Shown piece after piece: positions 43,926-47,360 of a stretch of DNA of 64,000 bases (its first letter is position 1; every line of letters starts with the position of its first letter). The position numbers were made by a program, and so were the translations under genes. The DNA comes from Microvirga thermotolerans (GTDB lineage: Bacteria; Pseudomonadota; Alphaproteobacteria; Rhizobiales; Beijerinckiaceae), in assembly GCF_009363855.1 (NCBI RefSeq), contig NZ_CP045423.1, forward strand, positions 310,001 through 374,000, given 5' to 3'. The notes under the pieces are model-generated. The model was given only the letters and a program-made list of their open reading frames with translations, did no database searches and was not told the DNA's origin.

Positions 43926-45479
<1,554 letters not shown>

Positions 45480-45493
45480 GGTTTTGAAATTCG

Positions 45494-45524
45494 CCGTCAT
45501 TCCCGCGAAAGGCGGGAATGACGG
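45494..45524. repeat. Perfect 13-bp-arm REP-like palindrome between ffh and rpsP
   Basis: CCGTCATTCCCGC and its exact complement flank GAAAG. Related arms occur at 8328-8372 and 36848-36876. It lies 15 bp after the ffh stop and 39 bp before rpsP, inside what should be one transcript, so it may adjust the ratio of the two products. Confidence 0.85.
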
Positions 45525-45562
45525 GAGAGGTTGATCGAAGGACACTGACAGGAGAAGAAACC

Positions 45563-45922
45563 ATGTCCCTCAAGATCCGTCTGACCCGCGGTGGCGCGAA
45601 GAAGCGCCCCTACTACCGCATCGTCGTCGCCGACTCGCGCTCCCCGCGCGACGGCCGCTTCATCGAGAAGGTCGGCACCTACGACCCGATGAAGCCGAAG
45701 GACGACGCCACCCGCGTGGTGCTCGAGACCGAGAAGATCCAGGCCTGGCTCGCCAAGGGCGCCCAGCCGACCGACCGCGTCCTGCGCTTCCTCGACGCCG
45801 CCGGCCTCATGAAGCGCCCGGCCCGCAACAACCCGCAGAAGGCCGTTCCCGGCAAGAAGGCCCAGGAGCGCGCCGAGGCCAAGGCCGCTGCGGCCGCCGC
45901 CGGCGAAGGCGAGGCTGCTTAA
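45563..45922 (+). CDS. rpsP: 30S ribosomal protein S16
   Basis: A 119-residue small-subunit protein. The conserved start [20 protein letters not shown] and VGTYDP are intact, and the tail is Ala/Glu/Lys-rich, as in many alphaproteobacteria. GGAGAAG precedes the ATG. It is followed 5 bp later by rimM, the 16S rRNA processing factor that works on the same region of the small subunit. Confidence 0.98.
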
Positions 45923-45927
45923 CTCTC

Positions 45928-46680
45928 ATGACGAAGCGCGAGCGTTCCCGACAACGCTCCGCCTCTTCCCTCCCCCAGGATCCGTCAAGGGATACGCAAA
46001 CCGGGACCACCCGGCTTGCGTCGGGGAGGGGCAGGGGTGGGGGTGCGAGCGTCGAGCCGACAGAGCGTGGCGCCGACACCCCCGCCTCCGACGCCTCCCC
46101 GCACGGGGGAGGAGGGCAAGCCGCGCCCCGACGTGACGATCTCGTCCTCGTGGGCGAGTTCGGCCGCGCGCACGGCCTCAGAGGGGAAGTGCGGCTGAAA
46201 TCCTTCACCGGCGACCCGCAGGCGATCGCCGGCTACAGGCCGCTGATCGGAACGGACGGCAGGACCTACGCCCTCGGGGCCGTCCGCCCCGCTCCCGGCG
46301 CCGCGCCCGACATGCTCATCGCGACCGTCGAGGGCATCGCCACCCGCGAGGCCGCCGAGGCGCTCAACCGCGTGCGGCTTTCCGTGGAGCGCGACAGGCT
46401 TCCGCCGCCCGAGGAGGAGGACGAGTTCCTGCTCGCGGATCTCATCGGCCTCGCCGTTGTGGACGAGACGGGCGCGCTCGTCGGCACCGTCGTCGACGTT
46501 CCCAACTACGGCGGCGGCGACCTTCTCGACATCCGTTCCGCCGCGACCGGCGCGACCGCCCTGCTGCCCTTCGTCAAGGCCTTCGTGCCGACGGTGGACA
46601 TCGCGGGCCGGCGCGTGGTCGTCGCCCTGCCGGACGACTTCTTCGCGCCCGCGCGGCCCGAACCCGGGGACGCAGCGTGA
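45928..46680 (+). CDS. rimM: Ribosome maturation factor RimM with repeat-derived N-terminal extension
   Basis: A 250-residue protein. The RimM core begins near residue 72 ([23 protein letters not shown]), and the PRC-barrel half contains [14 protein letters not shown] and [13 protein letters not shown]. RimM binds S19 and helps mature the 30S head. Residues 12-68 are a low-complexity stretch encoded by a palindromic repeat. There is no ATG, GTG or TTG in frame between 45928 and the core, so the repeat must be translated. Its stop overlaps the GTG of trmD. Confidence 0.93.
45975..46125. repeat. Palindromic repeat forming the 5' part of rimM
   Basis: The arms GGGGAGGGGCAGGGGTGGGG and CACCCCCGCCTCCGACGCC with CTCCCC face each other around a short centre. 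The element shares arms with the one in the pseudouridine synthase gene (37206-37290). It is in frame and is read as Gly/Arg- and Pro/Ala-rich sequence. Confidence 0.65.
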
Positions 46681-47360
46681 CCTTTTCCGCGACGGTCCTC
46701 ACCCTTTACCCCGAGATGTTCCCGGGCCCCCTCGGCGTCTCGCTCTCGGGCGACGCGCTGGCGCGCGGCGTCTGGTCGCTCGAGGCGAAGAGCATCCGCG
46801 ACCACGGCCTCGGCCGCCACCGCACGGTCGACGACACGCCGGCCGGCGGCGGCGTCGGCATGGTGCTGCGCTGCGACGTCCTCGCCGCCGCCCTCGATGC
46901 GGCGGCGCCCCCGTCCGATCCGCGCCCGAGGCTGCTCATGAGCCCGCGCGGCAGGCCGCTGCGGCAGGAGCGGGTGCGGGCGCTTTCGGCAGGACCCGGC
47001 GTGGTGCTCGTCTGCGGCCGGTTCGAGGGCGTGGACGAGCGGGTCATCGAGGGCCGGGGCCTCGAGGAGGTCTCCATCGGCGACTACGTGCTCTCCGGCG
47101 GCGAGATCGCCGCCATGGTGCTCCTCGACGCCTGCGTGCGGCTCCTGCCCGGCGTGATGGGCAAGGAGGCCTCGGGCCACGACGAGAGCTTCGAGGGCAA
47201 CCTCCTCGAATATCCCCACTACACGCGGCCCCGCGAATGGGAGGGGCGGACGATCCCCGACGCGCTCCTCTCCGGCAACCATGCCGCCATCGAGAAATGG
47301 CGGCGCGAGCAGGCCGAGCGGATCACGCGGGAGCGTCGGCCGGACCTGCTGGAGCGGTAG
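46677..47360 (+). CDS. trmD: tRNA (guanine37-N1)-methyltransferase TrmD
   Basis: A 227-residue SPOUT methyltransferase. The knot sequences [13 protein letters not shown] and [20 protein letters not shown] form the AdoMet site, and the catalytic Asp is in SGHDESFEG. It methylates G37 of tRNAs and prevents frameshifting. It starts with GTG overlapping the rimM stop. Its 3' end overlaps the convergent cysteine synthase-like gene by 38 nt, so the usual downstream rplS is displaced. Confidence 0.97.

Follow-up and report, generated by a model that had tools for sequence, protein, structure and literature searches.

A dispersed palindromic repeat as the probable N-terminus of the ribosome-assembly factor RimM in the genus Microvirga

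Sequence analysis of the rpsP-rimM-trmD region of Microvirga thermotolerans indicates that the N-terminus of RimM is probably encoded by a dispersed palindromic repeat, a proposal made in the original prediction for this DNA and supported by the tests at hand. The region was studied within a window, by which we mean the entire analysed stretch of 64,000 nucleotides and to which all plain coordinates refer, and the comparison was extended to 48 Microvirga genomes, in which the rpsP-rimM junction is intact in 46 and cut in 2. In 44 of the 46 intact junctions the segment preceding the RimM core matches one of three families of palindromic repeats, here termed A, B and C. The reading that we favor, with a probability of about two in three, is that an element resembling REPs or the Rickettsia palindromic elements (RPEs) was captured as a translated leader and kept for its nucleic-acid structure, the peptide being merely tolerated.

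The rimM reading frame and the element ahead of its core

The features of the region are given below, with the basis of each in brackets.

45563..45922, + strand: rpsP (S16), the gene upstream of rimM (ORF list)
45928..46680, + strand: rimM, including the probable repeat-encoded tail, 250 aa (ORF, RimM domain models)
45928..46128, + strand: N-terminal tail of 67 codons, made up of leader and family A element (from the start codon up to the core)
45940..45959, + strand: leader hairpin h0, GAGCGTT..AACGCTC (sequence, family A alignment)
45968..46031, + strand: hairpin h1, CCCTCCCC ... GGGGAGGG, with a nested palindrome in its loop (sequence, RNA fold)
about 45977..46022, + strand: the nested palindrome in the h1 loop, GCAAACCGGG..CCCGGCTTGC (sequence; also in the rimM of genome G061)
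46034..46089, + strand: central stem, GGGGTGGGGGTG with CACCCCCGCCTCC (inverted repeat, RNA fold)
46094..46116, + strand: hairpin h3, CCTCCCC gcac GGGGGAGG, a near reverse complement of h1 (sequence read directly)
46129..46677, + strand: RimM core, comprising the RimM N domain and PRC barrel (domain models, structure prediction)
46677..47360, + strand: trmD, the gene downstream of rimM (start overlaps the rimM stop)

The ATG of rimM lies at 45928, 5 nt past the TAA of rpsP. Its product is matched by PF01782 from residue 75 and by TIGR02273 from residue 73 (126 bits, the cut-off being 66). The core of this ORF (45928-46680) starts near residue 70, in agreement with the earlier estimate of about residue 72. 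When the core was set to start at codon 68 (46129) and the frame was scanned for start codons, the sole in-frame ATG, GTG or TTG ahead of it was the one at 45928, as had been claimed; a GTG lies 7 codons into the core. AlphaFold2 gave pLDDT values below 50 at residues 1-64 and a confident core, and on this model the tail of RimM is predicted to be disordered.

The palindromic nature of the sequence preceding the core was also recognized correctly at the outset; its extent had been put at 150 bp, and leader and repeat together in fact span 201 bp (45928-46128). Three inverted repeats (I1, I4 and I5) were detected within this insert, and the RNA fold of 45990-46130 has an energy of -92.3 kcal/mol (z -5.4), a value matched by 0 of 200 shuffled sequences. 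The h0 equivalents of 18 other family A species, an alignment outside which the window's own insert stands, have 97% of their pair cells paired and display compensatory changes. Parts of the rimM insert are matched at 7 other places in the 3.82-Mb genome (G000), with E values from 6.5e-14 to 9.2e-9. A search of 45400-46800 against Rfam yielded 0 matches at the gathering score.

Two further observations concern palindromes in and around these elements (G and L numbers denote genomes and loci, respectively). 1) A second palindromic element is nested in hairpin loops in the rimM of G000, G061, G015, G016 and G028, and the same nesting is seen away from rimM in L141 and L143 (G029) and in L223 (G016); it looks as if hairpin loops were preferred targets. 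2) A different palindrome (CGTCATTCCCGCGAAAGGCGGGAATGACG) occupies 45495-45523 in the gap separating ffh from rpsP and looks like a CGTC-tagged REP; a relative is seemingly read as VIPARAGMTG in the same gap of G009 (L035).

Repeat families at the junction and the case for translation

In all 46 intact junctions a start codon lies 2-9 nt past the rpsP stop, and the frame is open from there as far as the RimM core, adding an extension of 24-77 codons (median 53). Aligning RimM from relatives had been suggested as a way to see if the insert is absent there; the outcome is not that of a one-off insertion, as 45 of the 46 have tails of 44-77 codons, and G007 alone, with a tail of 24 codons, is without a repeat. 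Local alignment of 48 inserts (2 of them partial), in which a family was called when the score exceeded the best of 20 shuffles, placed 25 in A, 12 in B and 9 in C, and left G031 and G007 unassigned, with scores roughly no better than the shuffled maximum; G070 and G012 are only weakly typed. The three families are repeats of roughly 95-140 bp with a common layout in which terminal hairpins flank a central stem, and members of each were found elsewhere in the six genomes searched. Family A occurs at a minimum of 40 places in G029 (65 overlapping matches; 40 of 71 candidates scored), family B gives 3-5 matches in each of three genomes, and family C gives 14 in G016 and 10 in G034; the matches are counted with rimM itself included and with overlaps on both strands. 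The tail peptide varies in sequence between Microvirga species and is not conserved.

Evidence that the tail is made comes from comparing the rimM copies with those lying elsewhere. One family A copy was read in the rimM frame in each of 37 stretches of G029 (39 non-rimM places): a stop codon interrupts 22 of the 37, 23 have a net indel whose length is not divisible by 3, and 6 are open and in frame, whereas in 24 of 24 family A copies at rimM an unbroken frame leads into the core. Fisher's test gives 1e-11 for this difference and 8e-7 for stops alone (24/24 against 15/37 open), both values being nominal because the copies are related. As rimM has none of the stops and frameshifts that are common in the genomic copies, translation of the tail is very probable. 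Species differ in which of two frames they use for the second arm of A, the frame being restored before the core. In 36 of the 46 junctions codons -12 to +2 include no ATG, GTG or TTG, a start-type codon being present there in 10, and in 15 the entire stretch from -12 to +8 is free of them. GC-rich DNA is often open in other frames as well (frame +2 in 26 of 46 inserts, the antisense frames in 15-30), so that openness alone is a weak sign, whereas 46 of 46 with the frame kept is not. Codon-position entropy provided no useful coding signal (0.405, 0.406 and 0.467 for rimM copies against 0.332, 0.318 and 0.433 for genomic ones).

A search for further in-frame copies, one of the checks proposed at the outset, found them in genes for UvrC, an RluA-type synthase and a ligase-associated helicase. 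Coding-like sequence continues in frame on both sides of 3 of the 61 genomic copies screened, namely those in UvrC (G029), the DEXH helicase (G017) and the RluA-family pseudouridine synthase (G016), and in-frame copies are thus the exception. The genes with such copies are:

L132:1-1653 (G029): UvrC with an in-frame family A copy in the RNase H domain, residues 341-376
L223:517-1449 (G016): RluA-family synthase with an in-frame C element and a nested palindrome within the matched catalytic domain
L228:296-2101 (G017): ligase-associated DEXH helicase with an in-frame C copy
L225:1-1143 (G034): ligase-associated exonuclease with an in-frame C copy near the C-terminus

The UvrC match is unbroken in 4 of the 48 genomes; the remaining 44 have it split (residues 334-346 to 367-395). 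In a comparison of 12 UvrC proteins, the repeat peptide was seen in G029 and G071, a dissimilar or partly similar stretch in G001 and G031, a short remnant-like segment in G000, and short linkers in seven. The fold of the UvrC stretch amounts to -0.39 to -0.47 kcal/mol per nt in G001, G031 and G000 against -0.66 in G029, and the rimM junctions of the same three genomes fold at -0.55 to -0.61; the uvrC copy appears to have decayed in these three. As a separate point, the NCBIfam names of the DEXH helicase and the exonuclease make both parts of one DNA-damage response, with the copies being in different species.

Palindromes at the junction extend beyond Microvirga. In the genus g60, L092 and L100 have in-frame extensions of 60-66 codons in which the first hairpin is repeat-like (46 against a shuffled maximum of 29, and 40 against 33). 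In the genus g33, an A-like palindrome (L094; 58 against 32) and a B-like one (L095; 72 against 38) lie between rpsP and an ATG placed 17 codons before the core, and in L094 a stop codon separates the palindrome from that ATG. Palindromes thus occur at the junction whether coding or not, which favors a role for transcribed structure, on the few cases that the two g33 loci provide, and the presence of L094 and L095 within one genus suggests that family replacement may happen without coding. Four other g33 loci (L096-L099) have extensions of 42-44 codons with no similarity to the repeats, although the fold of L096 is strong (z -4.7), and ten further loci tested outside Microvirga displayed no repeat similarity. 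Relatives sharing the extension and lacking a repeat in their DNA had been named as evidence against the original prediction; evidence of this kind was found in part, in the 24-codon tail of G007 and in L096-L099 of this related genus, and the extension as such is therefore more general than the repeat.

Conserved pairing, exchange of families and their explanation

The pairs of family A were aligned in 18 of the 23 available inserts, with the window's own and four others left out. Standard pairs account for 92.4% of the pair cells, and double changes are seen in 13 of 45 pairs against 2-7 in controls with slid partners; in family B (12 inserts) the respective figures are 99.0%, and 3 of 37 against 0-2. 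The number of further pair types did not exceed that in shuffles in A (31 against a mean of 32.4, 446 of 500 shuffles being as high) and was little above it in B (10 against a mean of 8.3, 48 of 500 as high). Depending on the species, the h1 stem reads CCCCTCCCC/GGGGAGGGG, CCTTCTC/GAGAAGG or CCTTTTCC/GGAAAAGG, and the peptide changes. The fold of the junction has z below -3 in 43 of 46 cases; the first 165 nt of the core reach such a value in 5 of 46 and the last 165 nt of rpsP in 0 of 46. What is kept at rimM is, on this evidence, more likely the hairpin than the peptide; the pairing could alternatively persist via a re-supply of copies from elements that are already palindromic.

The distribution of the families was examined on an rpoB tree of 46 genomes, of which 42 were typed (G031, G007, G070 and G012 being unlabelled, and G004 and G026 absent, owing to a missing rpoB match and to fragments, respectively). 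At least 14 changes between A, B and C are required, against a shuffled mean of 17.4 with 3% of shuffles at or below 14; the types are thus slightly more clustered than random. Tests for a single clade reject both B (p 2.6e-11) and C (p 6.9e-5). Each of 6 of the 48 genomes has a single occurrence of a 37-nt junction of leader and B element, in every case at rimM, the 6 other B genomes of the 12 having other leaders there. A 35-nt junction of leader and C element likewise has a single occurrence in each of 7 of 48, six times at rimM and once (G030) at a contig end; the rimM contig of G030 is cut inside the insert. The B and C junctions occur in neighboring genomes within three rpoB clades (G017/G003 with G021, G065 with G025, and G008/G006/G011 with G034/G028), a pattern pointing to allele exchange. 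One ancestral type could explain B or C, not both; short-tract homologous exchange is the simplest account.

Identities of rpsP, insert and core were compared in 21 hand-picked pairs. Where close relatives differ in type, rpsP and core are alike and the insert is not (G036-G017: rpsP 0.98, insert 0.71, core 0.88-0.93). Some pairs of the same type are more alike in the insert than in the core, among them G028-G034 (leader 1.00, insert 0.96, core 0.78-0.81) and G003-G011 (leader 0.93, insert 0.89, core 0.75-0.83). The insert is not always above the core: in G036-G013 (A) it stands at 0.85 against 0.75-0.87, and G017-G008 (B), with 0.85 against 0.81-0.82, is likewise among the pairs counted against such an excess.

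Under the explanation that we favor, palindromic repeats, each a row of hairpins, came to occupy the rpsP-rimM junction. In Microvirga the element lies between the rimM start codon and the core, probably because the gap between rpsP and rimM is short, and its translation would yield a disordered tail some 44-77 residues long. Species would swap this cassette by short-tract homologous recombination, anchored in the conserved rpsP and rimM core. The element would stay since its transcribed hairpins act at the junction, most simply by making rimM-trmD less well translated than rpsP, or else by shielding the 3' end of rpsP, and the peptide would be tolerated under the sole constraint of remaining open and in frame. 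In E. coli, according to a passage in PMC4378010, rimM and trmD carry ribosomes at a density about tenfold below that of rpsP and rplS on the same mRNA, and a strong hairpin at the rimM start could do such lowering in Microvirga. A bolder form of the idea, which we hold only tentatively and at less than even odds, is that the rimM 5' end is a genus-wide cassette site, where a domesticated translated hairpin sets the ratio of rimM-trmD to rpsP and is swappable, from one species or repeat family to another, as long as it is folded and in frame. Were this true, a coding region would be selected for RNA shape, with the peptide as a by-product.

The elements might instead be neutral selfish DNA of the RPE or intragenic-REP kind, persisting wherever it does no harm, with the flexible RimM N-terminus as a safe landing site and no role for peptide or hairpin. 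The in-frame copies in UvrC, the RluA-type synthase and the ligase-associated helicase are what one would expect of such DNA, as are the predicted disorder and the lack of conservation of the tail, and the intragenic-REP section of PMC3733652 lists similar target genes. Yet a repeat has been retained in 44 of 46 junctions through many family changes and with compensatory changes of pairs, whereas the uninterrupted uvrC form is confined to 4 of 48 genomes, and we regard simple neglect as unlikely, if still worth serious attention.

Very improbable, in our view, is that the repeat is intergenic and that a near-core or non-standard codon, at the core or next to it, serves as the start of rimM translation, with the long ORF an artefact of GC-rich DNA. 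The same section of PMC3733652 argues in this manner for many N-terminal REPs, the repeats of L094 and L095 do lie outside the ORF, whose ATG is 17 codons before the core, and a start-type codon does lie near the core in 10 of 46 species; but the other 36 have no ATG, GTG or TTG at codons -12 to +2, the stops of 22 of 37 genomic A copies are met in none of the 46 rimM copies, and the frame is kept via compensating indels. We would be just as surprised if the basic disordered tail itself were selected, e.g. for binding 16S rRNA in 30S assembly, with the repeats as raw material. Net charge is indeed positive in 46 of 46 tails (median +6, against -9 for the core), including the repeat-free tail of G007 (+5), but this property is not specific to the frame, given that frame +1 is positive in 46 of 46 and frame +2 in 37 of 46, and neither the sequence nor the frame of the tail is held constant from species to species. 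Capture of a translated leader kept for its structure remains the reading that we prefer.

Comparison with known palindromic elements

To our knowledge, the main known cases of palindromic repeats translated into protein are the intragenic REPs and those of Rickettsia, whose RPE families were reportedly described by Ogata, Claverie and co-workers and are mentioned in PMC3733652. The likeness to these elements drawn in the original prediction is upheld by the in-frame copies in several genes, among them UvrC with its uninterrupted match in 4 of 48 genomes. The shared traits are genome-wide palindromic repeats lying in frame in unrelated genes, a tolerated extra peptide and an alphaproteobacterial host; the comparison is one of these traits. 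Unlike the RPE case, the Microvirga rimM N-terminus is occupied nearly genus-wide by interchangeable families, the hairpins of which are kept by compensatory changes.

In the operon rpsP-rimM-trmD-rplS of E. coli, folded mRNA in the rimM 5' region is behind the low translation of rimM-trmD. The gene order rpsP-rimM-trmD is shared by Microvirga, where a similar regulation may operate. The E. coli operon yields less RimM and TrmD than S16 (Wikstrom and Bjork 1988, as cited in a passage of PMC4378010).

The GTAG/CGTC REPs (Di Nocera et al. 2013) are mostly intergenic and, according to the intragenic-REP section of PMC3733652, also occur in genes for excinucleases, repair and pseudouridine synthases and at the N-termini of ORFs; many N-terminal cases are deemed extragenic there, and rimM is not named in that section. 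Single units of 20-40 bp carry a tetranucleotide tag, and intragenic clusters encode 43-82 aa (same section). The Microvirga elements resemble those covered by that section in being mostly intergenic, with copies also in excinuclease and pseudouridine-synthase genes, and A, B and C, as multi-hairpin units of about 95-140 bp, could be clusters of 20-40 bp REPs; they differ in that the coding state at rimM is supported across 46 Microvirga species. A RAYT was sought as source of the repeats and set aside, the gene (Y1_Tnp, PF01797) being present in only 6 of 48 Microvirga genomes and absent from G000 and G029. Br-REP1 and Br-REP2 of Bradyrhizobium, a related alphaproteobacterium, are likewise REP elements, Br-REP1 with three palindromes; they are transcribed and, unlike the rimM elements of Microvirga, are described in the relevant part of PMC5082802 outside reading frames, in 3'-UTRs and intergenic regions. 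Among the open-access papers listed by literature searches, judged by titles and abstract openings, none dealt with a repeat in RimM or with Microvirga palindromes.

The intragenic REPs and the Rickettsia cases are scattered insertions, whereas in Microvirga nearly a whole genus carries such elements in the same ribosome-assembly gene, to which are added the replacement of families, signs of exchange between species and the compensatory evolution of hairpins. It thereby becomes testable whether inserts of this kind persist through neglect or on account of their nucleic-acid structure, and how repeats turn into protein sequence.
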